This document shows positions 6,227 to 59,483 of a DNA stretch of 64,000 nt, piece after piece. The notes under the pieces were generated by a model. It did not search any database. It was not told the origin of the DNA and saw nothing but the letters and a program-made list of their open reading frames with translations. Position numbers and translations under genes: made by a program. Location of the stretch: positions 186,001 through 250,000 of the forward strand of contig NZ_JAQZSM010000005.1 in NCBI RefSeq assembly GCF_028745735.1, written 5' to 3'. The stretch is from Roseinatronobacter alkalisoli. GTDB taxonomy: Bacteria; Pseudomonadota; Alphaproteobacteria; Rhodobacterales; Rhodobacteraceae. Positions within the stretch are counted from its first letter, which is position 1. Every line of letters starts with the position of its first letter.

Positions 6227-6969
6227 TGGCGCGCGCGACAAGACGCTATCAGGAAGTGGCCGAAGGGTTGCGCGCGCTGATTGAACAGGGCGGCTATGCG
6301 CCCGGTGACCGCATCCTGACCGAACGCCAGATTGCCGAAAACCTTCAGGTCGGGCGTTCCGCCGCGCGCGAAGCCATTCTGTTGATGGAAATCGAAGGAA
6401 TGCTTGAAGTGCGCAAGGGGTCCGGAATTTACCTGAAAGCCATGGAAACATCCGCCCCGAAGGGCGATGCCAATGACATCGGCCCGTTTGAGTTGATTCA
6501 GGCCCGCCAGTTGCTGGAAAGCGCAGTGGCCGGGCTTGCGGCCTCTACCGTGACAAAGGCCGATATCATACGCATGCGCGACGCGCTGGAACTGGAACGC
6601 AACAGCATTGCGACTGGCGCACAGGATTATTCGGGGGATGAACTGTTTCACCGCCTTATCGCCGAAGCGACACAGAACAATGTGCTGGTCGATACGGTCA
6701 ATGAACTGTGGAAAAAGCGCGAAGCAAGCCGGATGTGGGCACGCCTGCATGACCGCATATTCGTGACCGATTACAGATTGCGCTGGCTGGATGATCATAG
6801 CGCGATTCTGGCCGCCCTGCAACGCCGCGACCCGGAAGCCGCCCGCAGTGCCATGTGGCAGCATCTGGAAAATGTGCGCGTGACATTGCTGGAACTGTCA
6901 GATGACGAAGACCCCGGTTTTGACGGCTATCTGTTCGATTCACGCGAAGTTTCGAAAGTGTTTCGCTGA
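6226..6969 (+). CDS. GntR-family transcriptional regulator, FadR subfamily (UxuR/ExuR-like)
   Basis: 247 residues. A winged helix covers residues 5-72, with the recognition helix in QVGRSAAREAILLMEIEGML. An all-helical FCD effector domain (about 85-235) follows, with His/Asp positions that bind metal and ligand in this subfamily. It starts in a TGATG overlap with the GH2 gene, so it is co-translated with the enzymes it probably controls. The UxuR-like operators at 3284-3322 and the uxuA gene just downstream make a repressor released by a uronate intermediate the best guess. Exact effector unknown. Confidence 0.85.
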   Translation: MARATRRYQEVAEGLRALIEQGGYAPGDRILTERQIAENLQVGRSAAREAILLMEIEGMLEVRKGSGIYLKAMETSAPKGDANDIGPFELIQARQLLESAVAGLAASTVTKADIIRMRDALELERNSIATGAQDYSGDELFHRLIAEATQNNVLVDTVNELWKKREASRMWARLHDRIFVTDYRLRWLDDHSAILAALQRRDPEAARSAMWQHLENVRVTLLELSDDEDPGFDGYLFDSREVSKVFR

Positions 6970-46297: not shown

Positions 46298-47494
46298 TCA
46301 CACGGGATACCGGTAGGATGCTGCCATAAGCTTCCCCTCGCCGTTGCGATCTTCCATCGGGAAAATGTCGCCGCCGTTTCGAAGCGTCTCTATGATGGCG
46401 CGGTCGATCAGATCGTCGGCCCCCCCGGCGTTGGCTTCTGCGGTCAGGTTACCGGCGTCAAACCGTCCCGGAAGTGACGCGCCGCTTTGCACGAAAAGAT
46501 GTGCAACGCGGCCTGCCGCCGCCGCAACTACGATATCGGCAGGGTTGTCGCTGGCTTCACTGTCACCGCGGCCCATTGACATCGCCACCTTATCCCAGGC
46601 ATCCGCACGGCGCTTGCTGATTTCCCGGTGAAGGCATTTTGCGGCCGCATGGCGCAGCTCTTCCTGATCAAGGCTGACCGGATGCCGGGTAATCCCTTCC
46701 TCCACAAGGAAGGGATATTCGCAGCTTGAATGAATCATCCCATACAGACGTTCATCGGCAGCAATGACCAGTGGCGTGCTGGTGCCGCTCAGATGGCGCT
46801 GCGCGGCGTTGATGACAAGATTGGCATAGACGCGCAATTCCTGTTCATGGTCTTCACGCCAGTCATGTCCGCCCATGCTGTGATGCGGCACGCCCGTTGG
46901 CCCTGCAGGCCCGGACGGACCGACCAATCCGCCCCTGTATGATGCCGGAATGCCCGAATCCTCGCGCCCGTGGATATTTCCCTTCTCCTGCTGATCTGTA
47001 AACTGACTGATCTCCGTCAGCGAACCGGGCATATCCGCCACCTTCTGCAGGTTAAGCACACCGCCAGTAACACGATACAGGCAAGCCCGGTCGCTGCTGG
47101 CGACAAGCACTGCGTGATCGGGTGTCTGCTCCAACGCGGCCAGCAGCGGCGCCAGTCGGAACCGCGTGCCGACATGGACGCTGGTTTCCGTGAAACTGGC
47201 GTCGACAACCTGCGTCCGGTCCGGTGCGATGAAGGCTGCTACGCGCCGGTCCCGACCGCCGACAACATCGTCATAGCTAAGATCTGCCAGCCGCTGCTGT
47301 ACAGCGTAAACCGCTGCGGCATCAGCACCCGCATCAGCAATAGCGGCCTTTGCATCGGCTTTTGCATTCTTCAGGGCAATGCGAATGTGATCATGCTCGC
47401 CACCGCCAGCCGACATTTCCATATAAAGGCTGACACAAAGCGGACCTTCGCACAGCGCCAGATCACGAAGCAGGGTTGGATTGAGCGTTTGCAT
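46298..47494 (-). CDS. Bacterial archaeo-eukaryotic release-factor-like protein (baeRF/eRF1 family)
   Basis: 398 residues from ATG 47494 (AGAGGTG upstream; a frame to 47794 runs through the promoters). N-terminal LCEGPLCVSLYMEM with a helical middle, then AAFIAPDRTQVVDA and VLVASSDRACLYRV near 120-160. The C-terminal HLFVQSGASLPGRF and TLRNGGDIFPM resemble the eRF1 domain-3 fold. A Gly/Pro-rich loop (near 205-225) takes the GGQ-loop position but has no GGQ. Proteins of this family are thought to act on stalled ribosomes or have RNase/hydrolase roles. An EcfG-type promoter lies 30 bp upstream, so it is a general-stress gene. Confidence 0.78.
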   Translation of the reverse strand: MQTLNPTLLRDLALCEGPLCVSLYMEMSAGGGEHDHIRIALKNAKADAKAAIADAGADAAAVYAVQQRLADLSYDDVVGGRDRRVAAFIAPDRTQVVDASFTETSVHVGTRFRLAPLLAALEQTPDHAVLVASSDRACLYRVTGGVLNLQKVADMPGSLTEISQFTDQQEKGNIHGREDSGIPASYRGGLVGPSGPAGPTGVPHHSMGGHDWREDHEQELRVYANLVINAAQRHLSGTSTPLVIAADERLYGMIHSSCEYPFLVEEGITRHPVSLDQEELRHAAAKCLHREISKRRADAWDKVAMSMGRGDSEASDNPADIVVAAAAGRVAHLFVQSGASLPGRFDAGNLTAEANAGGADDLIDRAIIETLRNGGDIFPMEDRNGEGKLMAASYRYPV

Positions 47495-47524: not shown

Positions 47525-47549
47525 AACCCGCGCCGACCGGAACAGTTCC
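47525..47549 (-). promoter_or_regulatory. EcfG-type promoter for the eRF1-like gene
   Basis: On the minus strand GGAAC (47549-47545), 17 bp, GTT (47527-47525), continuing as GTTTC. Thirty bases before the ATG at 47494. Confidence 0.72.
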
Positions 47550-47744
47550 GTGCAGAAAGCGCCGCAAGCGTATATCGGGCTTATGTTTTGCGGGATAGGG
47601 CGGGAACCGGCTGTCTGCTTCCGAAACAGGTTATAGTGTGCGGTAACGTACTGAATTTTGCCTTTTTTGTGCTGCGTCACCTCAGCTATAAATTCAACCC
47701 AAAGCTGTATTCTGCGTCGGAAGGCGATGGGGCAACTTCCGGTC

Positions 47745-47769
47745 GGAAGTATCCCTGATGCCGACCGTT
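47745..47769 (+). promoter_or_regulatory. Degenerate EcfG-type promoter for the HWE kinase gene
   Basis: GGAAG, 17 bp, GTT (47745-47769), one mismatch in the -35 (G for C), 26 bp before ATG 47796. Spacing is identical to the seven perfect sites of the region. Confidence 0.45.
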
Positions 47770-47795
47770 GTTGAGCCGTGAACAGGGAGTTCAAA

Positions 47796-48449
47796 ATGGA
47801 TGAACGCAGGGAATTTCAAACTGATACCAATAAGGCGGACATCCCGGAACATATGGAAATCAGTGTCGCCGAAAGCGATCACAGGATTGCCAACAGTCTT
47901 AGTCTTACGGCGGCCCTACTGCGGATGCAGCGCCAGAAATCTGCCGACGCTATCCTGAAAAACGCTCTGCTAAGTGCGGAAGCGCGCATTATGAGCATCG
48001 CAAAGTTTCATGCCTACCTTCACACCCGCAGCACAATCGGGCGCGTTAATCTGGCGGATGCCTGCATCGAGATCCTGCCGGATCTAAGCAAAAGTGTTGG
48101 TGTCCGATGCTTGCTAGAAATTGAAGATGCCAAAAAAGTCGATGTTTCCAGACGTCTTGCACAGAAACTGATGGTCATCATCAACGAACTTGCCCTGAAT
48201 GCACGCAAACACGCCTATGAAGGTCAGGAAGGGGGCTCCATCTCGGTTGAACTGAGACCGGATGCCGGACACCGCGTTAATCTCTGTGTGCAGGACAGCG
48301 GGCCAGGACTTCCCGAAAACTTTGACCCGGCAAAAAGCACAGGGCTTGGCCTCAGAATCGTGTCATCGCTTGTCGCGGATCTTGATGGCACGCTGCACTG
48401 GCAGACGAATGGTGGGGCGCAGTTCACGATTTCCATTCCCTTGGACTGA
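47796..48449 (+). CDS. HWE/HisKA_2-type sensor histidine kinase (soluble, no sensor domain)
   Basis: 217 residues from ATG 47796 (CAGGGAG upstream; GTG 47778 is less likely). H-box ESDHRIANSLSLTAALLRMQ with phospho-acceptor His29, then dimerisation helices and an ATPase domain (about 105-215) with INELALNARKHAYEG (N-box), DSGPGLPE (G1) and GLGLRIV (G2). There is no sensory or membrane segment. Kinases of this family phosphorylate PhyR, the anti-anti-sigma factor that frees EcfG. The adjacent stress genes fit that role. The 3' end overlaps the convergent Crp gene by 26 bp. Confidence 0.88.
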   Translation: MDERREFQTDTNKADIPEHMEISVAESDHRIANSLSLTAALLRMQRQKSADAILKNALLSAEARIMSIAKFHAYLHTRSTIGRVNLADACIEILPDLSKSVGVRCLLEIEDAKKVDVSRRLAQKLMVIINELALNARKHAYEGQEGGSISVELRPDAGHRVNLCVQDSGPGLPENFDPAKSTGLGLRIVSSLVADLDGTLHWQTNGGAQFTISIPLD

Positions 48450-49146
48450 TCCCGATAAGACGCTCATATTCGCTTTCCGGAAGTCCGTAGATGCCATTGG
48501 CGCTGACCTCCATCCCCTCGCGGTCGATGATTTCGATACACCCACGGCGGGCCCGGATCAACGCCCGCCCTTCCAGAAGATGTATTGCCAGCGTGACGCC
48601 AGCGCGCCGGACCCCAAGCATTGTGGCAAGAAAATCATGTGTAAGGTTCAGCGTGTCACCATCGGTCCGGTCATGGCACATCAGCAGCCACCGGCAGAGC
48701 CGGTCTTCAAGATTTGCCCGCGCATTCGATGCGGCAGTCTGTGCTGTCTGGATTGCCAGCGCCTGTGTATATCTTAAAAATACGTTCTGCAGGGTCGGGC
48801 TTTCACGCATGGCTTCGCGCAGCGCGTCGCTTGTAATGCGCAACCCGTCGCCTTGCATCTGCATGAAGCATTCATAGGGCGAACGCCCGTTTCCCAACGA
48901 GACTGCACTGCCGGTCATGCCCTCCCGTCCGACTATGCCAACCTCGACACGCTGGTCGCGGCCGACGGGCGCAACAATTGACGCAACGCCGGAAGTCGGG
49001 AAATAAATATGTTCGATGGGGATCTTCGGGCGTTCCAATGCAAAACGCCGGTCAAGCACGATTGGCTCCAGATGCGGTTCAATCAGTCCGACATCTTCGG
49101 CAGAAAGTGTACGAAGCAGAATATTCATATACGAAGAATGGGCCAC
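48424..49146 (-). CDS. Crp/Fnr-family transcriptional regulator
   Basis: 240 residues from GTG 49146, which has GAGG at the right distance; ATG 49128 is possible. A cyclic-nucleotide-binding-like jelly roll (10-140) is followed by a C-terminal winged helix (150-220) with LTHDFLATMLGVRRAGVTLAIHLLE. No N-terminal Cys set, so not an iron-sulphur Fnr. Members of this group often accompany HWE kinases in alphaproteobacteria. It is convergent with the kinase gene and overlaps it. No clear EcfG-type site precedes it. The 26-codon ORF upstream may share its transcript. Confidence 0.88.
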   Translation of the reverse strand: MAHSSYMNILLRTLSAEDVGLIEPHLEPIVLDRRFALERPKIPIEHIYFPTSGVASIVAPVGRDQRVEVGIVGREGMTGSAVSLGNGRSPYECFMQMQGDGLRITSDALREAMRESPTLQNVFLRYTQALAIQTAQTAASNARANLEDRLCRWLLMCHDRTDGDTLNLTHDFLATMLGVRRAGVTLAIHLLEGRALIRARRGCIEIIDREGMEVSANGIYGLPESEYERLIGISPREWKS

Positions 49147-49284
49147 ATGGCACCTCGCTTATCCGGGGATGGCACGTCAGCGCGTATCGCGTATCATTCA
49201 TATGCACGCGCCGCACTCTGATCTGATGATTTCGCTTACCTGAGTCAGCAGAAAACCGGTTCCTGCTTAGTCTTGCAACATACG

Positions 49285-49365
49285 CTAATGCAATTTCGCT
49301 GCCACGGATGCGGGCAGTGCCCGCGACTGCACATCGAGCAGGGTGGGGTTTTCCGGTAGGGTCAT
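49285..49365 (-). CDS. 26-residue small ORF behind an EcfG-type promoter
   Basis: ATG 49365 is preceded by AAGGAGC at ideal spacing. It encodes MTLPENPTLLDVQSRALPAS then VAAKLH and stops at 49285. A perfect GGAAC-N17-GTT promoter lies 35 bp upstream (49400-49424), so the transcript would have a short leader. The peptide is not membrane-like and has no recognisable family. It may be a regulatory peptide, or a leader for the Crp gene 138 bp downstream. Confidence 0.45.
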   Translation of the reverse strand: MTLPENPTLLDVQSRALPASVAAKLH

Positions 49366-49399
49366 TTCGTAAGCTCCTTTTTACAACTGCTGCCCCCCA

Positions 49400-49424
49400 A
49401 ACATGTGGGTGGCCCAATTGTTCC
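49400..49424 (-). promoter_or_regulatory. EcfG-type promoter upstream of the 26-residue ORF
   Basis: On the minus strand GGAAC (49424-49420), 17 bp, GTT (49402-49400), reading on as GTTTGG. The nearest coding sequence downstream is the small ORF at 49365, then the Crp gene. Confidence 0.7.
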
Positions 49425-49528
49425 GCAGGCAAGGCCTTCCCGCCCGCATTCCGCCGGGGCGGTATTCGCGGATGTTGCGCAAAAGCAGGAACCGGGTTTC
49501 TGCTTCCCGGACATGCGTTGTCAACCGG

Positions 49529-49783
49529 TCAGGCCGTGTCGCGGATCGCCTTCGCGCGTTCAAGCAATATCTGCATTTCGCGCGCGGCGGCACCCTCGAT
49601 GGCGAATGCGCTGTCCGCCAGCACGCCAGGGTCTTCCTGATGGTCCTGCACGCCCTGTTCTGCGTCCAGTGCATCCGGAAAATCACTGCCCGGCTGGCGC
49701 ATGGCCCAGGCCAGAAGCGCCGCCAGGACTTCGCGTTGGGCATTCAGCCGCCCTTCAAGTTGCTGGGGGGATTGTTCTGTCAT
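49529..49783 (-). CDS. Small hypothetical protein (84 residues)
   Basis: From ATG 49783, with GGAGG 11 bases upstream. Acidic, Gln/Ala-rich and probably helical throughout (NAQREVLAALLAWAMRQ near 15-30, REMQILLERAKAIRDTA at the end). No known domain. It follows the ExoD-like gene by 65 bp in the same direction and probably shares its EcfG-controlled transcript. Confidence 0.6.
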   Translation of the reverse strand: MTEQSPQQLEGRLNAQREVLAALLAWAMRQPGSDFPDALDAEQGVQDHQEDPGVLADSAFAIEGAAAREMQILLERAKAIRDTA

Positions 49784-49848
49784 TATGTACGATTCCTCCA
49801 TTCTGTTCAGGTGCAGTAAAAACTGTGCGGCCAGCCCCTGCACTTCCG

Positions 49849-50475
49849 TCAGCCGAAAACCCCCGCGATCATGTGGCCAGCCAGTTGAATAAACGCGGCG
49901 GCCCCCGCCACGGCGACGGCGACCCCCGCAAGCGCAAGCAATCCGTCATCGGCTATGAATGCCACCGCCACCAGACAGACAGCAATCGCCGCAATAGAAG
50001 AGGTCAGCGGCACCCATTCCATGAAGGGCATTGCCAGACCGCAGAACACGCATACCAGTTGCAGCGGCAGCACCATCGGCCAGCGCAGTAGCCAGGTCAT
50101 TCGCGGTCGCGACAGATAGTCAATCCAGCCGACAGGCCGCTGGAGGAAGTCAAGCGCGCGCTCAAACCTGTCGCCGTCGATCCGGCGTTCCATTACCCAG
50201 TCGGGCAACCAGATGTGATCGCGCCCTGTCAACATCTGGATGGCAATCAGCGCAATGATCAGCCCACAAACCGTGGGCAGGCCCGGAATGCCACTTGCCG
50301 GGGTGGCGATGATCATCGCTGGCACCAGCAGCAACGCCCCGAACGAGGCTTGCCCCAAACGTTTGATGATATCGCGCACGCTTGGCGAATGCCCTTCGCC
50401 CGCATCGTGCAGGGTTGATACGATCTCGCCAATCTCTTCTGTGGATTTCTGGCTGGCGTCATCCGGCACGGTCAT
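49849..50475 (-). CDS. exoD: ExoD-family membrane protein
   Basis: 208 residues from ATG 50475. SVRDIIKRLGQASFGALLLVPAMI near 27-50 opens the ExoD domain, followed by hydrophobic helices (GLIIALIAIQMLTGRDHIWLPDW, WPMVLPLQLVCVFCGLAMP). In rhizobia ExoD affects exopolysaccharide production and alkaline tolerance; biochemical role unknown. The ATG overlaps the stop of a 47-residue ORF upstream (CCATGA). An EcfG-type promoter at 50624-50648 drives the unit. Confidence 0.82.
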   Translation of the reverse strand: MTVPDDASQKSTEEIGEIVSTLHDAGEGHSPSVRDIIKRLGQASFGALLLVPAMIIATPASGIPGLPTVCGLIIALIAIQMLTGRDHIWLPDWVMERRIDGDRFERALDFLQRPVGWIDYLSRPRMTWLLRWPMVLPLQLVCVFCGLAMPFMEWVPLTSSIAAIAVCLVAVAFIADDGLLALAGVAVAVAGAAAFIQLAGHMIAGVFG

Positions 50476-50615
50476 GGCGCATAATTCCGCCAAGGGGCGG
50501 CAGGGGTCGGCAGGCCGCGCCGCGCCGTGATATCAGGCGGAGCGAACGGTCGTGTGCCGACGCGACTGTTTCGTTCAGGACACAGCATTCGCGACTCCGC
50601 AATATTTCTGTTCAT
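50472..50615 (-). CDS. Possible 47-residue ORF translationally linked to exoD
   Basis: ATG 50615 lies at or within a few bases of the expected start of the EcfG-type transcript (GTT at 50624-50626). It runs in frame to a TGA overlapping the exoD ATG. The product is Arg/Pro-rich without a domain. It may be a leaderless coupling ORF or merely chance. Confidence 0.3.
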   Translation of the reverse strand: MNRNIAESRMLCPERNSRVGTRPFAPPDITARRGLPTPAAPWRNYAP

Positions 50616-50623
50616 AGAGAATG

Positions 50624-50648
50624 AACATCCGACGCCCTGGAAAGTTCC
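50624..50648 (-). promoter_or_regulatory. EcfG-type promoter for the exoD unit
   Basis: On the minus strand GGAAC (50648-50644), 17 bp, GTT (50626-50624). It lies 148 bp from the exoD ATG and 8 bp from the ATG of the 47-residue ORF. Confidence 0.65.
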
Positions 50649-51146
50649 CTTTGGACAAGGTTGTTCACGGCTGGACACGCGTGCCCGCGCGAACTGGCCA
50701 CTGTTGCATGAGGCTGAATGAAGGGGGACGGAATGCCAACGATATCAGTTAATATGCTGTTTGCGGGTTTGCGCGCCGATCTGCGCACAGAAAGGATGCC
50801 GGGCAACCTCGGCTTTCTGATTGGCGAAATCGTGCCGGGCCCGGCCCCGGCTGCGCTGACATTTTCGCTGTTGCGGCTTCAGGCTGCATTGCAGGACCAA
50901 TTCGTTGCGCAGTGGCGGCCGGAGTCTGGACCCGCCACCCGTCGGGCATCGCAGCACGCAGGTCGGCCAGGTCGGCGACGCTGATTTCCGGCATATTATT
51001 GCCCCAGTTGTTGCTGCATGATACAGCCCGTGACCGCATCTTTCTGTCATCATCAAGCAGCGATGGGGCGGGTTTGTTCCCTCCGGCGCACAAACGACCT
51101 GACCCCCGATGAAAGGGGCCAGCGCATAATACGCGCGCTTCCGGGG
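50649..51146. other. 498-bp stretch with only doubtful ORFs
   Basis: Frames open on both strands (for example plus 50734-50984 from an ATG with GGGGGACGGA before it, and minus frames 50745-51093), but none has a recognisable domain, and their compositions look like shadows of one another. It could be a decayed gene. No repeat, RNA or mobile-element signature was found. Confidence 0.4.
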
Positions 51147-51317
51147 CTATTCGTGGGGATCTGATGACTCGCGGTGGCGTCGAAGGGCGGCCTGCAATTC
51201 TTCGGCCAATGTCCGCAATTCGTTTGGGACAGGCTCTTGCGCGATCCGGCTGATCAGGTTCTTCATCTGCTGTTCAAGAGAAGCCTTGTCCGCGTGATCA
51301 TTGTCCTGCCCGCCCAT
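51147..51317 (-). CDS. Small acidic protein, weakly NepR-like
   Basis: 56 residues from ATG 51317 (AAAGGA upstream). It reads LEQQMKNLISRIAQEPVPN then ELRTLAEELQAALRR, resembling the anti-sigma factor NepR with its EPVP turn followed by a Leu-rich helix. However, the first helix is about five residues shorter than in known NepR proteins. The location in a stress island with an EcfG-like sigma factor makes a NepR-type role attractive but unproven. It is divergent from sodC. No EcfG-type promoter lies before it. Confidence 0.5.
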   Translation of the reverse strand: MGGQDNDHADKASLEQQMKNLISRIAQEPVPNELRTLAEELQAALRRHRESSDPHE

Positions 51318-51507
51318 ATCGTGAATCCTTTCAGCATCTCGCTCAGTGTATTTCATCCTTGGGAATACGTCCAAGTCAATCGGGCGGATTACAACACAGC
51401 CTGCCTCCCCCTTGCAAAATAGCCTGCATCAGGCCCTGCCCCTGTGCCAGCCCGCCCCCCCCGCGTACCAACGATGGACATGGCCGGAAACTTCCTCCTG
51501 CATTTGC

Positions 51508-51532
51508 GGAACATCCTGCGCTTGCCGCCGTT
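51508..51532 (+). promoter_or_regulatory. EcfG-type promoter for sodC-katE
   Basis: GGAAC (51508-51512), 17 bp, GTT (51530-51532), preceded by C. Thirty-five bases before the sodC ATG. Confidence 0.75.
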
Positions 51533-51567
51533 GGGATAAGTCACACCCAGACAAGAAGGAGTCGAAA

Positions 51568-52077
51568 ATGATACCTTTGCGCGCATTCGCCATTGCATCT
51601 GTCATTCTGGCAGCGCCAGCCGCTGCCCAGACCGGCGAAACCGCCACTGCTTCGTTCATTGATCAGGACGGTCAGGAGACCGGCAACGCCACCCTTACCC
51701 AGACGAATGCAGGCGTGCTGATTGAGCTGGAGGTCGCGGATCTGCCGCCCGAAAGCTGGATCGCCTTCCACATCCACGAGGAGGGCGTTTGCGATGCCGA
51801 TCATGATCATGAAGGCGCTGGCGGGCATTTCTCGCCCTCGGAGTCCGGGCATGGTTTCCTGTCCGGGGATGGACCCCATGAAGGCGACATGCCCAACCAG
51901 TATGTTCCCGCAGATGGCGTGTTGCGGGCACAGGTGCTGAACGCGATGGTTGCGCTTGATGGTGGCGAAACGGACCTTCGGGGCGGGTCCCTGATGCTGC
52001 ATGCGGAACCCGATGATTACGTAAGCCAGCCATCCGGGGACGCGGGCGCGCGGATTGCCTGCGCTGTAATCGAATAG
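51568..52077 (+). CDS. sodC: Copper/zinc superoxide dismutase family protein
   Basis: 169 residues from ATG 51568 (AAGGAG upstream; the longer frame from 51346 passes through the promoter). Signal peptide [20 protein letters not shown]. Copper-site histidines in FHIHEEG, the bridging His in [12 protein letters not shown], zinc-site His/Asp in GPHEGDMPN, the last copper His in [19 protein letters not shown], and a disulfide pair (Cys in GVCD and IACAVIE). It removes superoxide in the periplasm. It is in an operon with the catalase gene 37 bp downstream under an EcfG-type promoter. Confidence 0.9.
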
Positions 52078-52114
52078 ACACATGTGCCCTATCCCCAGAG
52101 AAACGGAGAAACCG

Positions 52115-54247
52115 ATGCCTGATGATACCCCCGTATTCCGCCCCACCGCCGACACCCAGTCCGGTCGTGATACCATCACCCGCAAGGCGCGGCAGGGTGC
52201 GGGTGGCGAAATCCACCAATCGCCCGCAAGCGACCAGTATCTGACCACTGCGCAAGGTGCGCCTGTCAGCGACAACCAGAATACCCTGCGCGCGGGTCCG
52301 CGCGGCCCGGCACTGATGGAAGATTTTGCCATGCGCGAGAAGATCTTCCATTTTGACCATGAACGCATCCCCGAAAGGGTCGTCCATGCCCGTGGCTACG
52401 GGGCGCATGGATATTTCGAAGTTACCGATACCTTGTCCGACGTGACATCAGCGCATCTGTTCCAGAAGGCCGGACGCCGGGTTCCGGCCTTTGTCCGTTT
52501 CTCCACGGTGGCGGGCAACAAGGGTTCGATGGATCTGGCGCGTGATGTACGCGGCTTCGCTGTCAAGCTTTATACCGAAGAAGGCAACTGGGACATCGTC
52601 GGCAATAACATCCCGGTCTTCTTCATTCAGGATCCGATCAAGTTTCCCGACCTTGTTCATTCGGTCAAGGAAGAACCTGACCGCGGCTTCCCGCAGGCAC
52701 AGTCCGCGCATGACAATTTCTGGGATTTCATCTCGTTGATGCCGGAATCGCTGCACATGATCATGTGGACAATGTCTGACCGCGCAATCCCGCGGTCGTT
52801 CCGTTTCATGGAAGGGTTCGGGGTGCACAGTTTCCGGCTGGTCGATGCCGGGGGCCGCAGCACCTATGTCAAGTTCCACTGGAAGCCGCGTCAGGGGCTG
52901 CAGTCGGTGCTATGGGACGAAGCAGTGAAGATCAACGGCGCCGACCCGGATTTTCACCGCCGCGACCTCTGGTCCGCGATTGAGTCCGGCGATTTCCCCG
53001 AATGGGATCTTGCGGTGCAGCTTTTCGATGATGACTTCGCCGACAGGTTCGATTTCGACATTCTTGATCCCACCAAAATCATTCCCGAAGAAGATGTGCC
53101 CTTGCGTGTTGTCGGCAAGCTGGTGCTGAACCGGAATGTCGATAATTTCTTTGCCGAAACGGAGCAGGTCGCCTTCTGCACCCAGAATATTGTACCGGGG
53201 GTGGATTTCACCAATGATCCGCTTTTGCAGGGGCGCAACTTCTCATATCTTGACACGCAGCTCAAACGGCTTGGCGGCCCCAATTTCACGCAGATCCCGG
53301 TCAATGCCCCGCGCTGCCCGATGCATCATTTCCATCAGGACGGGCATATGCAGACACGCGGTCCCAGCGGGCGTGCGAATTACGAGCCGAACAGCTGGGC
53401 CAAAGGGGGCCCGCGCGCAGACCATAACCGGGGCCACCGCGCATTCCCCGAACCGGTTGAAGGCCCCAAGCGCAAGCTGCGTGCCGATAGCTTCGCCGAC
53501 CACTACAGCCAGGCGCGGCAGTTCTATATCAGCCAGACCACGATAGAGCAGGACCATATCGTTGATGCACTGGTTTTTGAATTATCGAAAGTTGAAACCC
53601 TTGCTATCCGCGAAAGGGTTGTCGCGCATCTGCCCAATATTGACGAAGCGCTGGCGCAGAAGGTTGCAACGGGGCTGGGACTGAAAGATATGCCTGCGCC
53701 GCACAAGCCTGCCGTCGCACCGAAAACCGATTTGCCGCCATCTGCTGCACTGTCGATCATCAGGAACGGGCCGGACAGTTTTCGTGGGCGCACGCTGGGA
53801 ATCGTGATGACGGACGGGGTCGGGGACGACCTGCTTGACGCACTCATTTCCGCAACCGGGGATGCGGGCGGCACGGTGGTGCTGATCGCGCCAGCAGTCG
53901 GGGGTGTCACCACAACCGGGGGCAAGCATGTCGCTGCCAATCAGAAGATCGATGGCGCGCCCTCGGTGCTGTTCGACGCGGTCGCAGTGCTGGCTGATGA
54001 CAAGGGGGCAGCCCTGCTTGCGGGAATGCACTCTGCGCGGTGTTTTGCCGCTGATGCGCTGGCGCATGGAAAGTTCATCGCCCTCTCTGCTGAGGCAGCG
54101 ACGCTGTTCAACGCCGGGGTCAATGCGGACGGCACTGATGAAGCGGGGCAGAACGCGGGCATCCATATCCTGTCAGAACCGCAGGACGCGCAGGTCTTTC
54201 TTCAGGATTGTGGCGCATTGCGCTGCTGGGAACGCATAGGCGGCTGA
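52115..54247 (+). CDS. katE: Large-subunit monofunctional haem catalase (KatE/HPII type)
   Basis: 710 residues from ATG 52115 (ACGGAGA upstream; ATG 52082 lacks an RBS). Distal haem His in [11 protein letters not shown] near 90, Asn in [11 protein letters not shown] near 163, and proximal Tyr in [13 protein letters not shown] near 377. The C-terminal 150 residues form the DJ-1/flavodoxin-like domain ([21 protein letters not shown]), which marks the large-subunit clade. It decomposes hydrogen peroxide. Second gene of the sodC operon; followed by a strong hairpin. Confidence 0.97.
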
Positions 54248-54249
54248 TC

Positions 54250-54280
54250 GCAGGGGGCGGGTTCCGGCCCCCTGCCCTTT
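54250..54280 (+). terminator. Terminator after katE
   Basis: GCAGGGGGC/GCCCCCTGC stem of 9 bp with an 8-nt loop, tail CCTTT, 3 bp after the katE stop. Confidence 0.75.
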
Positions 54281-54289
54281 ATGCATACC

Positions 54290-54337
54290 CTTGCAAATGG
54301 CCGTGGCGGGGGTTCGGGCCACCGCCACGGCTGCAAG
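54290..54337. terminator. Long stem between katE and the PRC-barrel gene
   Basis: Outer stem CTTGCA/TGCAAG and inner stem GCCGTGGCGG/CCGCCACGGC form a large hairpin just downstream of the stop of the minus-strand PRC gene. Likely bidirectional. Confidence 0.65.
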
Positions 54338-54339
54338 GG

Positions 54340-54729
54340 TTAAACGCCCAATGGCAGCCCGTAATGGCCGTGAACCCGGCGGTCGTATTCAGGGTCGACC
54401 CAGGGGTCTTCGTCACGCGCGAAACTCGGGCCGCCTTCAAGCTGTTCACGCGGGATATTGACGACATATCCGCCAAGAGCGGTATCGTAATCCAGCGTAT
54501 CCCATGGCAGCGGGTGGTAGCGTTCCCCGATGCCCAGGAACCCGCCAAAGGACATCACGGCATAGGACACGCGGCCCGAATATTTATCCACCATGAAGCT
54601 GTCGACACTGCCGACATGTTCGCCCTCAAGGTTATAGACATTGGTACCCTCCACCTTGCGCGACGAAATCAGGCGCTGTGTCTCAGTGGTGGTTTCATGC
54701 CCGGCGGCGCCGGTCTGACTATGGATCAT
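54340..54729 (-). CDS. PRC-barrel domain protein, stress-type
   Basis: 129 residues from ATG 54729 (GGGAG upstream; an earlier in-frame ATG at 54786 lies upstream of the predicted promoter and would not be transcribed). PRC barrel at about 20-100: LISSRKVEGTNVYNLEGEHVGSVDSFMVD and VMSFGGFLGIGERYHPLPW. Proteins of this kind are abundant EcfG-dependent stress proteins in alphaproteobacteria; molecular role unknown. Promoter GGAAC-N17-GTT at 54760-54784. Confidence 0.88.
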   Translation of the reverse strand: MIHSQTGAAGHETTTETQRLISSRKVEGTNVYNLEGEHVGSVDSFMVDKYSGRVSYAVMSFGGFLGIGERYHPLPWDTLDYDTALGGYVVNIPREQLEGGPSFARDEDPWVDPEYDRRVHGHYGLPLGV

Positions 54730-54759
54730 GGCTTTTCTCCCTTGGTTTGTGTCGTGCCT

Positions 54760-54784
54760 AACCATCGGGATGAACGGGTGTTCC
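54760..54784 (-). promoter_or_regulatory. EcfG-type promoter for the PRC-barrel gene
   Basis: On the minus strand GGAAC (54784-54780), 17 bp, GTT (54762-54760), 30 bp before the ATG at 54729. Confidence 0.75.
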
Positions 54785-54824
54785 ACACAGATTTGCGGGC
54801 GCGCGGGCTACCACCGGACACGGA

Positions 54825-56318
54825 CTACCACAATCCGATCAGCGGCAGAATCACGAACCACGCAACATGCGTCAGCGCTACGCCAAGCAACAGATCAATG
54901 CGCCCTTCGGGGGCACCTGCGCGCAGATAGCGCCGCAGCATCCAGACCTGAAACACCGCGTAGGGCACGACGATCAGCGGCAGCAGCACACTGACCGGCG
55001 CGACCAGTAATGCCAGCAGCACTGCCGCCAACGCCGAAGCCACGGTCAGTCCCAGTGCCAGCCGCGCGGCGCGCGCCGGACCAAGCCGCACCGGCAGGGT
55101 AATTTTTCCTGCTGCGGCATCAGCGGCCCGGTCGGGGATGCCGGCAAGTATGATCGCGGGCAGCACCGACAACCCGATCGCCAGCCCGGTTGCCCAGACA
55201 TCTGCGGTGAAAGGGTCGCCACCCTGGGCGACATACCCCAGCAAAAGTACCCCCGGTCCGTGAGTCAGCGCCACATCCATCTCGCCCAGACCCCGATGCG
55301 ACAGTTTCAGCGGCGGCAATGTGTATCCCAGCGCCAGCACCGCCAGCACCCCCAGTACCAGCGCCGTCGCGCCGGGCGCGGGCACCACCAGCAGCAATAG
55401 CAGCGACGCAACTGCACAGATCGTCAGCGCCACATAGACCCCGCGCCACAGATCCCCCAGCGAAAGCACCCCTTCATGCAGGCTGCGTCCGCCGCCGTTG
55501 AACGGTCCCCAATGCCGGTTCACCGCGTCGCTGTCACGGTCGAAAATATCATTGGATAGCACTGTCGCGACCTTGAGCGCCATCATCGCCACCAGCCCTG
55601 CGCCAAAGGCCAGCGCATCCAGCGGCTGCAGCAGCAAAAGCGCACCCAGCGTATAGGCAAGCACACTCATCGGGAAGAATTGCGGCCGCACTGCCAGCAG
55701 CCATTGCCCCAGCAAATGCAGGTGACGGCGCACGGGGCCACGCGGGCCATTGGCCAGCCGTTCACCCAATACACGCGCCTGCGTTATCCAGCGTGCGCGG
55801 GTCGGCGCATCAGAATGGCTGGGCGGGGAGAAGTGATGCACCCTGACTGTCTTGATTCCGCAAAGCCCCAATGTCGCGCGCGTCATCGCATGCTCGCCCG
55901 GCGCACCCTGCACCCAGCGATAGACCGGCGGCGGCACATCCATGGTGATCAGCAATTCAGCCGTGCGCGGCGCAAGCAGTCCATAATGGTGCCCCGCTTC
56001 CTCGCGGAAGGCGAAACCCGGATAAAGCACACGGTCCAGAAACCCCTTCAGCCGCGCGGGCATCATGCCCCACCAGTTGGGAAAGACGAATACCAGATGC
56101 TCCGCCCAGTCGATCAGATCGCGCGCGTGCGCAAGATCGGGTTCCAGTGCCTGATCCGCAGGCGACGGCATTTCCACATCAGAATTGAAGTTCATTTCGC
56201 CAAGCGAAAGTGTCTTCACAGTGCAACCCGCGCTTTCCGCCCCGGCGGCATAGGCCCCCGCCAATGCACCACACAGGCTTTCAGTCCGCGGGTGTCCAAG
56301 AATGACAAGGAGATTCAT
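54825..56318 (-). CDS. Fusion of an NAD(P)H:quinone-reductase-like flavodoxin domain with a UbiA/MenA-type prenyltransferase
   Basis: 497 residues from ATG 56318 (GGAG upstream). Residues 1-190 match the MdaB/YwrO/NQO family: LVILGHPRTES (flavin-phosphate loop) and FVFPNWWGMMPARLKGFLDRVLYPGFAF. From 200 to 497 there are eight or so membrane helices with the UbiA motifs N256-D257-x-x-D260-x-x-x-D264, YTLPPLKLSHRGLGE near 332-346, and Asp396/Asp400 with GKITLPV. The two domains are joined in one frame without a stop. It is downstream of the ECF sigma gene by 58 bp, on the same strand. It should attach an isoprenoid to an aromatic acceptor that the N-terminal domain reduces or protects; substrate unknown. 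I have not seen this fusion described. Confidence 0.8.
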   Translation of the reverse strand: MNLLVILGHPRTESLCGALAGAYAAGAESAGCTVKTLSLGEMNFNSDVEMPSPADQALEPDLAHARDLIDWAEHLVFVFPNWWGMMPARLKGFLDRVLYPGFAFREEAGHHYGLLAPRTAELLITMDVPPPVYRWVQGAPGEHAMTRATLGLCGIKTVRVHHFSPPSHSDAPTRARWITQARVLGERLANGPRGPVRRHLHLLGQWLLAVRPQFFPMSVLAYTLGALLLLQPLDALAFGAGLVAMMALKVATVLSNDIFDRDSDAVNRHWGPFNGGGRSLHEGVLSLGDLWRGVYVALTICAVASLLLLLVVPAPGATALVLGVLAVLALGYTLPPLKLSHRGLGEMDVALTHGPGVLLLGYVAQGGDPFTADVWATGLAIGLSVLPAIILAGIPDRAADAAAGKITLPVRLGPARAARLALGLTVASALAAVLLALLVAPVSVLLPLIVVPYAVFQVWMLRRYLRAGAPEGRIDLLLGVALTHVAWFVILPLIGLW

Positions 56319-56376
56319 CAAGCCCTCACTCCGGTAGGGAATCGAACATGGGATTTTCGGGCACGCGCCACACCCG

Positions 56377-56943
56377 TCACACCAGCGGAATTTCGGCGGG
56401 GACAGGTGCCGTAACGTCACAAGTGCTGCCGCCGGCGCATTTTTCGCCCAGATCTTTAAGCAGTTGCAGCCGCGCACGGTTCAGGCGGCTTTTCACCGTA
56501 CCTATTTCGCAGGCGCACACATCGGCTGTTTCCTTATAGCTCATGCCCAGCACACCTATCAGCACAATCACCTCGCGCTGCGCGCGTGGCAGCCGATGGA
56601 TCGCCTCGCAAAGTTCGCGCTTGCGTATCGACCATTCCTGCCCCGGCGGGCTGCCGACCTGACTGGCCACGCAATCCAGTTTTCCCGGCGGTTCCCGCGT
56701 GGCGATCTTGAATCGGGTGCAATAGGTGTTGCGCATAATGGTGAACAGCCAGGATTTCAGCTTGGTTCCCGGCTTGAACTGGTGGATCTTGCCCAAAGCC
56801 TTGGTCAGGGTTTCCTGAACAAGATCGTCAGCATCGTTTGTATTCGCATAGAATGACCGGGCGAATGCGCGCAGCGCCGGAATAAGGGACACAATCTCTT
56901 CTTCGGTGTTCGGGACGGGTAAGTCGGGCCGTTCATATGGCAT
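56377..56943 (-). CDS. EcfG-like ECF sigma factor (general stress response)
   Basis: 188 residues. Region 2 is at about 20-90 (LRAFARSFYANTNDADDLVQETLTKALGKI, then LKSWLFTIMRNTYCTRFK) and region 4 at about 115-170 (LPRAQREVIVLIGVLGMSYKETADVCACEIGTVKSRLNRAR). These segments follow the ECF15/EcfG pattern of Rhodobacterales. No membrane anti-sigma gene is adjacent. The gene has its own GGAAC-N17-GTT site at 56994-57018, consistent with autoregulation. It likely directs the stress promoters found across 47.5-57.2 kb. Confidence 0.88.
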   Translation of the reverse strand: MPYERPDLPVPNTEEEIVSLIPALRAFARSFYANTNDADDLVQETLTKALGKIHQFKPGTKLKSWLFTIMRNTYCTRFKIATREPPGKLDCVASQVGSPPGQEWSIRKRELCEAIHRLPRAQREVIVLIGVLGMSYKETADVCACEIGTVKSRLNRARLQLLKDLGEKCAGGSTCDVTAPVPAEIPLV

Positions 56944-56993
56944 AGCGCGCGCTCTTTCGGTTTCAGAAAACGTTGTCCTTTTCAGTCCGAGTC

Positions 56994-57018
56994 AACCATA
57001 CCCGCGCCATCCGGTTCC
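56994..57018 (-). promoter_or_regulatory. EcfG-type promoter for the sigma factor gene
   Basis: On the minus strand GGAAC (57018-57014), 17 bp, GTT (56996-56994), 50 bp before the sigma ATG at 56943. Fits positive autoregulation. Confidence 0.75.
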
Positions 57019-57144
57019 CTGTTCGGGATTTCCGGACACACAACCTAAGCGAGAATTCGCCGAAATATCTGTCTGCAACATGCGTCTGTGCATTCACCCC
57101 GAAAATCGGTTTCCCGCCAATGCACGGGCCGTGCGCACATGCAG

Positions 57145-57169
57145 GGAACATCTGCCGCGATGGGGTGTT
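57145..57169 (+). promoter_or_regulatory. Orphan EcfG-type promoter pointing right
   Basis: GGAAC (57145-57149), 17 bp, GTT (57167-57169). It is back to back with the sigma gene promoter. No convincing protein gene follows before the convergent rpsD terminator. Confidence 0.65.
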
Positions 57170-57573
57170 AGGGGCAGTGGCAAGCGCCCCTGCGGACAAC
57201 GCCGTCTGCCCCTTCATGCGGGCCGCACAATCCAGAGGTAAAAAACTGACAGCGGCCTTCGTTCCGCGTGGTTTGTACGCAATTCCCGTTTCAACCAGCC
57301 TCGCGGTTCCGGCTGATATGACCGCGCCCTGTTTCAGGCGGTGAACGGCGGCGCATGGACGGGACAAAGGTTGGTGCCACTCCATGGCCAGGCGGGAAAC
57401 CGGAAAAACCAGTCCTGTGCCTTTTACCGCCGCGTCCGGTTGACACATGCGCCGCAGTTCTGCCCCCTAAACCCGTTGCGGCAAAGAATGTTCCCCGCCG
57501 GGATGTATCGGGCACCGCATGCCCCCCGGTGCAACACGCAGGCATTCACGCAACAATTCAATACTGGCAACAA
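57170..57573 (+). other. Non-coding stretch, possible small RNA
   Basis: A transcript from the orphan promoter at 57145 would start near 57176. It would immediately form GC-rich stem-loops: GGGGC...GCGCCCC around 57171-57190, and a longer GGGGCAG/CTGCCCC pairing ending near 57213. Open frames here (plus 57217 ATG, 42 codons; plus 57355) lack ribosome-binding sites or protein character. The bidirectional terminator at 57574 would end any longer transcript. Confidence 0.4.
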
Positions 57574-57601
57574 AAAACCCCGCCACAATGGGCGGGGTTT
57601 T
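57574..57601. terminator. Bidirectional terminator between rpsD and the stress island
   Basis: AAAACCCCGCC/GGCGGGGTTTT stem with a 6-nt loop; T-runs on both strands. It ends the rpsD transcript (minus) and could end rightward transcripts as well. Confidence 0.88.
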
Positions 57602-57623
57602 CTGAATAGGATCGGCGAAGAAA

Positions 57624-58244
57624 TCAGTTCTTCGCGTAAAATTCGACCACAAGATTCGGTTCCATCTGAACCGGATACGGCACATCCCCCAGCGCAGGCG
57701 TGCGCACGAAGGTTGCGGTCATCTTGGAATGGTCAACTTCCAGATAGTCGGGCACATCGCGTTCTGCCAGCGCGACGGCTTCCAGTACGATAGCCAGTTG
57801 CTTGGACTTGTCGCGGATGGCGATCACATCGCCTTCGCGGACGCGGTAGCTGGGCACGTTTACACGCTGGCCATTCACGGTGATATGGCCATGGTTAACG
57901 AACTGGCGTGCGGCAAACACGGTCGGCACAAATTTTGCGCGGTAGATCACGGCGTCCAGACGGCGTTCCAGCAGGCCGATCAGGTTTTCACCTGTGTCAC
58001 CCTTGATGCGTTCAGCTTCGGCATAGATGCGGCGGAACTGCTTTTCGGTCAGGTCGCCATAATAACCCTTGAGTTTTTGCTTGGCGCGCAGCTGGGTGCC
58101 GAAATCGGACAGTTTCTGCTTGCGGCGCTGGCCGTGCTGGCCGGGGCCATAGTCGCGGCGGTTTACGGGGCTTTTCGGACGGCCCCAGATGTTTTCGCCC
58201 ATGCGGCGGTCAATTTTATACTTGGCAGACGTGCGTTTGGTCAC
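57624..58244 (-). CDS. rpsD: 30S ribosomal protein S4
   Basis: 206 residues from GTG 58244 (GGAAGGAG upstream). Typical S4: [34 protein letters not shown] at the N-terminus, an S4 RNA-binding domain at about 95-160 ([25 protein letters not shown]), and the C-terminal end [12 protein letters not shown]. It nucleates assembly of the small ribosomal subunit. The N-terminal zinc-type Cys set of some S4 proteins is absent. Confidence 0.98.
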
Positions 58245-58433: not shown

Positions 58434-59483
58434 CTATGCTGCCAGAAGTGCGGTTTCCGCTACACCAAGGCAGCGGCGCGCAGTGTCGCCATAACTTGCA
58501 GGCCCTTGTTCCAGTTCCGGGAGTACCGCCCGAAGACTGGCGCGGTGGCTGCGCAACAGCTCCGGCGCGGCGAAGCCCGGATGGAAGCTTTCGGTCGGCA
58601 CATTATTGGCGAAAATGATCTGATGGCGTTCCAGCAGCACATGCATATAGGTGATACCATGCAAGGCCGCATCCTGCGTGACACCGCCATGGTCCAGCAA
58701 ATCGCACGCACGCACCAGCACTTCATCGATATTGAACAATGCACGCGCACGGGCGCCGCGCATCAACAGGCGATGCCCTGGCGAGACGCGCAGATCATCA
58801 TCAGGCTGCCCGGTTCCCAGCACATCACGGCGCAGCCGGACGGGCCGCAGATGCGGGTAGCGCCGCAAGGCCATGCCCGACAGGCGGCTGGTGCCGGTCC
58901 AGACCACCGGCTGGGGGCCGTCATCCTGAGTCAGGACCAGATCCCCGGCACATAGCTGATGGACGGGGCGCGGCCCTGTCGGAGTGGAAATCAATGTGTC
59001 ATCGGCAAAGCAGACAACGCCCTGCTGTAGGGGCGCGGCAGCTGCATCCGTTTCGCAGCGCCCCGTATCGATCGCGCTTTCGACGACATAAAGCGGTTGC
59101 GCCTGTGGCGGCATGCCATCCTCAAAAACCGCAACCCAATGGCCCGCAGCATGTACCAGTCGTGCCGTATAGACCGCATGGCCATCGGTCAGCACAAACC
59201 CCATGACCGGGGCCGCGGGCTGCAGCGGCATGTCTTCCGGCGGCAGTTCATGCCCGCCAAGACGCGCCGCGACCTGACGCGCACGTTGCCGGATGTCGCG
59301 ATATCCGTTAGCCCTGCCAAGGCGCAGCACATCTGTGCGCGCATCAAGGCATTGCACATCGCCGGTCCAGCACCAGCGTGCACCTGCGCGCAGCCAGCGC
59401 GGGTCAAGGCCGGAAACGCCATCGGTTTCGGTTGAATTCCAGTCCAGCGCGAATACGCCGGTCAAGGGTGCTGCGCGTGTCAT
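58434..59483 (-). CDS. Hint-domain (Hedgehog/intein-type) protein
   Basis: 349 residues. The Hint module begins near 155 with VVCFADDTLISTPTGPRPVHQL, where the Cys is the potential self-splicing nucleophile. DLVLTQDDGPQPVVWTGT and RVSPGHRLLMRGARARALF follow, with the conserved block-B-like His. The first 150 residues are unlike known domains. Rhodobacterales carry many such proteins, often secreted by type I systems, with unclear cleavage function. No signal peptide or RTX repeat is seen. 114 bp upstream lies the response regulator unit on the same strand. Confidence 0.8.
   Translation of the reverse strand: MTRAAPLTGVFALDWNSTETDGVSGLDPRWLRAGARWCWTGDVQCLDARTDVLRLGRANGYRDIRQRARQVAARLGGHELPPEDMPLQPAAPVMGFVLTDGHAVYTARLVHAAGHWVAVFEDGMPPQAQPLYVVESAIDTGRCETDAAAAPLQQGVVCFADDTLISTPTGPRPVHQLCAGDLVLTQDDGPQPVVWTGTSRLSGMALRRYPHLRPVRLRRDVLGTGQPDDDLRVSPGHRLLMRGARARALFNIDEVLVRACDLLDHGGVTQDAALHGITYMHVLLERHQIIFANNVPTESFHPGFAAPELLRSHRASLRAVLPELEQGPASYGDTARRCLGVAETALLAA

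Follow-up and report, generated by a model that had tools for sequence, protein, structure and literature searches.

A probable portable general-stress island around an EcfG-like sigma gene of Roseinatronobacter alkalisoli

In the PhyR-NepR-EcfG general stress response, an ECF15 sigma factor with a NepR-type anti-sigma factor serves stress genes from promoters of the GGAAC-N16-CGTT type. Extra copies of EcfG were present in half of the alphaproteobacterial genomes completed by 2013, an occurrence described as not satisfactorily explained (PMC3892343; this and the other general-stress papers are drawn on through excerpts of their text). R. etli EcfG2 (PMC3892343) and S. meliloti RpoE5 (PMC6180224) are each a second ECF15 sigma factor encoded away from phyR, while Sphingopyxis granuli has hierarchical paralogues, EcfG1 and EcfG2, with GGAAC-N16-CGTT promoters and additional use of variant GCAAC and CATT boxes (PMC7083833). 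Small RNAs with an EcfG promoter have also been described, namely GsrN of Caulobacter and ReC64 of R. etli (PMC5869019, PMC3892343). Here we analyse a 64,000-nucleotide stretch of Roseinatronobacter alkalisoli DNA (hereafter the window; positions 186001-250000 of contig NZ_JAQZSM010000005.1, here C76, in a genome of 4.84 Mb and 130 contigs), in which an EcfG-like sigma gene lies among exact copies of GGAAC-N17-GTT.

From the sequence, part of a general-stress island that is portable probably lies in the window; it combines an EcfG paralogue, a NepR-like protein, an RNA of the Atu_At1 family and stress genes that mostly have promoters of their own, with cascade wiring. Because the extra EcfG copy sits in a block with its likely targets, the question of what such copies do becomes testable in one locus. 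Furthermore, a small RNA family of unassigned function gains a widely testable hypothesis, induction by the general stress sigma factor.

Promoter sites and the extent of the island

An earlier note on this DNA listed seven exact GGAAC-N17-GTT sites, all of which are present (strands -, -, -, +, -, -, + in order of position), and overlooked an eighth, at 57470-57494 on the minus strand (Table 1). In 100 dinucleotide shuffles of the window, the mean count is 1.22 and the maximum 6, and a count of 8 was reached in 0/100. Most sites stand properly before stress genes, as that note had claimed, the exceptions being those at 49400 and 57145, which lack their intact gene here. The one-mismatch site that it placed before an HWE kinase also exists (47745-47769, +, GGAAG-N17-GTT); the kinase itself is of the HisKA_2 type, with its HWE match under the Pfam cut-off.

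Genome-wide, the exact pattern occurs 155 times, compared with 612 times for spacers 13-16 together (153 per spacer) and 213 times for a reversed-pattern control, so the excess is local rather than genome-wide; taking the whole-genome count as an excess was rejected on these two controls. Exact sites are likewise fewer than the reversed control in five relatives. Four clusters hold 30 of the 155 sites in about 37 kb in total, less than 1% of the genome: 8 in the window, 9 in 8 kb on contig C42, 9 in 16 kb on C98, which carries phyR-nepR-ecfG, and 4 in 3 kb on C37. The window is therefore not unique in its site density, as the earlier note had thought possible. In a census of all 155 sites, for which clusters were defined after inspection and genes were called mechanically (the called start extends beyond the site at 54760 and at one C42 site), intergenic sites make up 28 of 30 in the clusters versus 25 of 125 elsewhere (p 5e-14), and promoter-like sites 21 of 30 versus 12 of 125 (p 5e-11). 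The four islands hold most of the signal that exact sites reveal; some of the 12 promoter-like sites outside them may be real, and mismatched promoters may exist elsewhere.

Among 35 same-genus genomes searched, close relatives of the window sigma factor were found in two, Roseinatronobacter sp. S2 (86% identical) and Natronohydrobacter thiooxidans (73%). In both, a stress island of about 25 kb is contiguous and colinear apart from insertions; in S2 it lies on a complete plasmid of 612,909 bp. The retrieved island stretches contain 17 exact sites in S2 and 11 in N. thiooxidans. With orthology assigned by neighbouring gene, S2 has exact counterparts of 8/8 window sites and N. thiooxidans of 6/8. 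In the 15 pairs compared, identity falls to 53% in the spacers and 43% in the flanks, which sets the boxes apart from their surroundings; both members of each pair were chosen as exact, which makes the core identity of 120/120 true by construction and leaves 8/8 and 6/8 as the unbiased figures.

Near 80 related sigma genes of other species (loci L054-L133, the best 80 of 393, mostly from Mesorhizobium and kin), sites number 413 for spacer 17, 112 for spacer 18 and 23-44 for each of spacers 12-16 and 19-23, while the reversed control gives 37 at spacer 17 and 29-87 across spacers. The raised count at spacer 18, which 7 of the 47 RNA promoters described below also use, makes it probable that this spacing works as a variant in Rhizobiales. 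Site position, the S2 orthologs and this spacer-17 excess support the EcfG-type promoter reading of the earlier note.

The proposal of a compact stress regulon also holds, with the amendment that the window cluster is one of four and belongs to a larger island divided between the window and C42. Specifically, an SDR gene, an ectoine hydroxylase gene and two small genes are located on C42 with their sites. The window and C42 have in common 291 identical bases plus a 122-bp fragment at 87% identity, so the island was probably split recently, and the identical segment is probably the footprint of that split by recent recombination. A one-mismatch site at 51056 marks a further operon, which was not found here; the site is exact in S2. 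According to the annotation, the S2 island additionally encodes a cytochrome P450, an SDR, an ectoine hydroxylase, a second PRC-barrel protein and a ferritin-like protein.

The sigma factor and the NepR-like protein

The window sigma factor has the domains of ECF15, a region 2 of PhyR_sigma2 type and a region 4, and GGAAC-N17-GTT precedes its own gene and nearby stress genes. A canonical EcfG gene lies next to nepR and phyR, which is not the case here; the canonical phyR-nepR-ecfG set is on the separate contig C98, the only one with a Pfam NepR match over the cut-off in this genome. PhyR_sigma2 matches in the genome comprise PhyR and the canonical EcfG (both on C98), the window sigma factor and a third paralogue on C37. 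The window sigma factor is 42% identical to the canonical EcfG of its own genome and groups with rhizobial EcfG-like sigma factors in a clade of 31 rows with support of 100/99, in a tree in which some other branches are long and unsure. In the regions that bind the -10 and -35 elements, this clade has differences that are nearly fixed; in particular, the residue after KSR in region 4 is L (98%), versus mostly A (69%) elsewhere. A PhyR match longer than 200 amino acids was found at 6 of 93 loci, all of them EcfG loci of the same genus, and at 0/80 loci of window-sigma relatives, some of which are short stretches; the EcfG-labelled loci L170 and L171 from other families likewise gave no such match. 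By its sequence, the window sigma factor is a non-canonical EcfG (ECF15) paralogue. The EcfG-like label of the earlier note is thereby kept, for a paralogue and not for the phyR-linked sigma factor.

A third EcfG-like sigma gene lies at about 96,836-97,366 (-) of C37 (L038:8836-9366), with a product about 52% identical to the canonical one. The four exact sites on C37 are 6-9 kb away from it, near PRC-barrel-like genes and near a large gene that by eye resembles a CheB/CheR-type hybrid kinase.

The small open reading frame at 51147 is kept in S2, N. thiooxidans and Pararhodobacter, and weaker relatives occur near the sigma gene in a few other loci, with E values from 8e-7 to >1. The family was found in 1 other of 190 alphaproteobacterial genomes, 1.1 kb from the sigma-clade member of that genome. 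Comparison of its profile (8 rows, two being relatives that were weak matches themselves) with canonical NepR gives an hhalign probability of 61 and an E value of 7.8e-5. The protein is likely a dedicated anti-sigma factor, as predicted from profile and conservation. Two results weigh against this assignment: the protein has no match to Pfam NepR (PF18557), and profile matches to the PDB are weak, with NepR chains at ranks 3, 4 and 10 of 17 (E 0.067-0.6). On the S2 plasmid (L164, about 6557-6679), a second small open reading frame in the island matches Pfam NepR at 5.3e-4, below the curated cut-off. A candidate gene at 50749-51093 was dropped, since it has no Pfam match over the cut-off and one of its ends overlaps sequence homologous to the NepR-like region of S2.

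The Atu_At1 RNA family, possible promoter dialects and rival explanations

The predicted RNA at 57352-57455 starts 15 nt downstream of the -10 box that belongs to the eighth site. Its S2 ortholog, at 68.7 bits, lies below the orthologous site. The Atu_At1 family (RF02496) was found in 2 of 385 sampled genomes of the class, one being the window's own, and over the cut-off in 28 of 50 genomes that encode the sigma clade, which together give 30 matches, one falling short of the cut-off; the co-occurrence (28/50 versus 2/385, both under stricter filters) is confounded by ancestry and is not relied on. All 30 matches in sigma-clade genomes have an EcfG-type box with at most one mismatch, a spacer of 17 or 18 and a distance of 30-42 nt to the model start downstream, and 14 of these boxes are exact, whereas control windows contain such a box in 58 of 1832 cases. 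Among 15 further, Rfam-confirmed copies, including that of Agrobacterium fabrum pAt, the box is present in 15/15 (4 exact; control 66/1893); these plasmid copies were a hand-picked diverse subset of BLAST matches (57, 72, 2 and 1 records), chosen before their promoters were read. Altogether, a box with at most one mismatch occupies the corresponding upstream position in 47 of the 48 RNA copies examined, window and S2 included, in 47 different strings, at a control rate of 3-4%. In the 40 promoters with spacer 17, pairwise identity is 87% for the boxes, 35% for the spacers and 27% upstream; the other seven use spacer 18.

These predicted promoters would put the Atu_At1 family, so far without an assigned function, in the general stress regulon, and the family overall would be a general-stress-response RNA in Rhizobiales and Rhodobacterales. 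Our search of the literature on Atu_At1 and RF02496 found no link of the family to EcfG, and At1 is not mentioned in PMC3738593 or PMC4201532. The RNA is near the sigma gene only in L054 (N. thiooxidans) and L097 among the 80 related loci and lies away from it in the rhizobial loci; PhyR was found at 0/30 RNA loci within about 1.5 kb on each side. In three Agrobacterium/Rhizobium plasmids (L309:5993-6100, L312 and L319), the RNA is directly upstream of ligD, in L309 also near Ku genes, and there it might double as a leader.

Promoters differ between the canonical clusters of six genomes and the islands of three: GGAACC accounts for 37/46 canonical versus 5/45 island sites, and CGTT for 28/46 versus 5/45, orthologous sites in these counts not being independent. 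Island promoters are mainly GGAACA. Within the window's genome (G000), position 6 is C in 8/9 canonical and 3/17 island sites (p 0.0008), and the difference recurs within each of the three genomes (p 0.0008, 0.003 and 0.003); the difference in the -10 base holds in two of three (p 0.014, 0.003 and 0.14). One canonical locus, G010, has no preference at position 6 (2 C, 2 A). Around the phyR locus of G021, a relative that lacks a close match to the island sigma factor, 36 kb (contig C1:2715371-2751404) contain 13 sites in two groups, with GGAACC in 11/13.

In the islands of the window, S2 and N. thiooxidans, the sole GGAACC site is the promoter of the sigma gene itself, which suggests two-sigma wiring, canonical EcfG acting above the island sigma factor in a cascade. 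S. meliloti offers a precedent, in that RpoE2 switches on rpoE5 via a GGAACC promoter (PMC6180224), and the Sphingopyxis hierarchy offers another (PMC7083833). Under stress, the canonical PhyR-NepR-EcfG system on the other contig would use the GGAACC-type promoter to transcribe the island sigma gene, whose product the NepR-like protein would keep bound until stress; once released, the island sigma factor would read mainly the GGAACA promoters of the island, and the small RNA would tune mRNAs. For this cascade, the evidence is limited to three closely related species, because an exact site lies close upstream of the sigma gene in 5 of the 80 related loci (7 sites, with A in 4, C in 2 and G in 1 at position 6).

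Several observations pull the other way. The C42 half carries two GGAACC sites alongside seven GGAACA, two of the eight window sites (49400 and 57145) no longer have their gene, and the RNA was not found in 22 of the 50 sigma-clade genomes at the sensitivity of that search. The N. thiooxidans copy, the 48th examined, has no recognisable box; it was found by alignment, is missed by the Rfam model at the cut-off and matches a custom model by construction, having been part of its alignment. In S. meliloti, canonical RpoE2 promoters include GGAACA..CGTT, so the A/C difference need not mean distinct recognition, and RpoE5, a sigma factor of the window kind, had a single putative target (PMC6180224). 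In R. etli, EcfG1 and EcfG2 work in parallel, which speaks against a cascade, and both activate the ReC64 promoter in E. coli (PMC3892343). The GGAACA-type RpoE2 promoters, the single RpoE5 target and the shared activation of ReC64 favour a reading with no separate circuit, in which canonical EcfG reads all sites, the second sigma factor has a redundant role or none, and position 6 varies between A and C through lineage history. We regard this as possible, at clearly less than even chances: the position-6 difference is seen within each of three genomes, the substitutions in both DNA-binding regions are clade-wide, and the sigma gene, the NepR-like gene and the promoters remain linked in three species. 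The EcfG1 motif is present in just 1 of 19 units downregulated in an R. etli ecfG2 mutant (PMC3892343), which fits a distinct preference. The most far-reaching version of the island reading takes it as a transferable, self-contained module with a second EcfG, its own NepR-like anti-sigma factor and promoter dialect (GGAACA..KGTT) and a small RNA linked to them, subordinate to the host's canonical EcfG through a single GGAACC promoter and transferred as one block from replicon to replicon, the Atu_At1 family being a general-stress RNA common to Rhizobiales and Rhodobacterales; we advance this version only tentatively.

The RNA itself could be an untranslated leader or decayed coding sequence instead of an RNA gene. 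The window copy scores 0.6 bits below the Rfam cut-off of 60, a scan of 57000-57650 gave no terminator-like hairpin below it, and the ligD arrangement of the three plasmids could be that of a leader. We consider this alternative improbable, given that the S2 ortholog is over the cut-off, that a one-base gap between S2 and the window would break a reading frame, that other copies adjoin unrelated genes and that a GC-rich hairpin with a T run, seen by eye, follows the Mariluticola copy (unlisted by the terminator scan, which covers loops of up to 8). Chance or base composition, with GGAAC and GTT both common and clusters expected somewhere, would account for the genome-wide count, which resembles that of other spacers and is below the reversed control; it is refuted by the shuffled windows, the intergenic excess of clustered sites, the exact S2 orthologs and the spacer-17 spike in relatives, and we give it next to no credence. 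The general-stress island remains the preferred reading.

Island genes and relation to known systems

The stress genes of the island are sodC-katE, exoD, the PRC-barrel gene and baeRF in the window, and the SDR and ectoine hydroxylase genes in the C42 half (Table 1). The HisKA_2 kinase is unmatched in the island stretches of S2 and N. thiooxidans. Outside the island genes, a Hint-domain (Hint_2) protein adjoining rpsD is encoded at 58434-59483.

Table 1. Features of the island in the window, in order of position (promoter roles of sites are predicted)
Feature	Position	Strand	Evidence
baeRF (archaeo-eukaryotic release-factor-like) protein	46298..47494	-	PF18845 7.8e-18
Exact site, promoter of baeRF	47525..47549	-	pattern match and conservation
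HisKA_2 histidine kinase, no recognised sensor domain	47778..48449	+	PF07568 8.5e-14
Duplicate of the SDR gene promoter and first codons, at 87% identity to C42	49327..49448	-	
Exact site, promoter of truncated SDR gene copy (intact gene on C42)	49400..49424	-	
Small conserved island protein, without Pfam match	49529..49843	-	
ExoD-family protein	49849..50493	-	PF06055 2.8e-46
Exact site, exoD promoter	50624..50648	-	pattern match and conservation
Decayed site (GCT in place of GTT), with an exact counterpart in S2 that precedes an oxidoreductase operon	51056..51080	-	
NepR-like small protein, probable dedicated anti-sigma factor	51147..51374	-	profile comparison, conservation
Exact site, sodC-katE promoter	51508..51532	+	pattern match and conservation
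Cu/Zn superoxide dismutase sodC	51568..52077	+	PF00080 8.3e-33
Catalase katE	52082..54247	+	PF00199 7.8e-181
291 bp identical (100%) to C42, 3' end of PRC-barrel gene	54291..54581		
PRC-barrel protein, start moved to ATG about 30 nt below the site	54340..54729	-	PF05239 1.7e-13
Exact site, PRC-barrel gene promoter	54760..54784	-	pattern match and conservation
Flavodoxin-like/UbiA fusion gene, adjoins sigma gene; also beside it in S2, N. thiooxidans and Pararhodobacter	54825..56315	-	
Non-canonical EcfG-like (ECF15) sigma factor	56377..56943	-	Sigma70_r2 3.3e-14, r4_2 1.8e-14, PhyR_sigma2 8e-12
Exact site, own promoter of sigma gene, GGAACCG, canonical type; GGAACCG also in S2 and N. thiooxidans	56994..57018	-	
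Exact site, promoter of a 218-aa gene found in S2 and N. thiooxidans, not found here	57145..57169	+	
Small RNA, probable member of Rfam RF02496 (Atu_At1)	57352..57455	-	59.4 bits, E 5.5e-8
Exact site, predicted promoter of small RNA	57470..57494	-	

The locus shares with the PhyR-NepR-EcfG response, the canonical set of which is on C98, its sigma domains, promoter type, stress genes and, probably, a NepR-type anti-sigma factor. It differs in that the sigma gene has no adjacent PhyR, the targets form a block around it, and most island promoters have a base other than C ahead of GTT. Similar in arrangement is S. meliloti RpoE5, which is encoded on pSymB, is RpoE2-induced and lies beside an unannotated RsiA1/NepR-like open reading frame (PMC6180224); a homologue on S. 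meliloti plasmids is 54% identical to the window sigma factor and is not established as rpoE5 itself. For RpoE5 and R. etli EcfG2, however, the excerpts of PMC3892343 and PMC6180224 describe neither a compact island of targets nor a small RNA beside the sigma gene, and the single putative RpoE5 target came from overexpression (PMC6180224). In Sphingopyxis granuli, unlike here, both sigma genes are together with nepR2 and phyR2 (PMC7083833). A literature search judged by titles found no paper on EcfG regulon islands.

As to the RNA, Rfam describes RF02496 as a Rhizobiales small RNA, with the S2 and Agrobacterium fabrum pAt copies and others over the cut-off and the window copy just under it; here the family extends to Rhodobacterales and is tied to EcfG-type promoters. 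GsrN homologues and ReC64 usually adjoin phyR-ecfG, Caulobacter crescentus excepted (PMC5869019, PMC3892343). In its place, Atu_At1 differs from GsrN: the window RNA lies at a non-canonical sigma gene, and none of the 30 loci has PhyR within about 1.5 kb on each side. The RF02496 model had no match in 14 control genomes; a genome of Caulobacter vibrioides is one of the controls of this kind. Relative to these systems, what we infer anew from sequence is the confinement of most intergenic, promoter-like exact sites to islands, the conservation, splitting and plasmid location of the island, a likely two-sigma wiring, and the assignment of a small RNA family to the general stress response.

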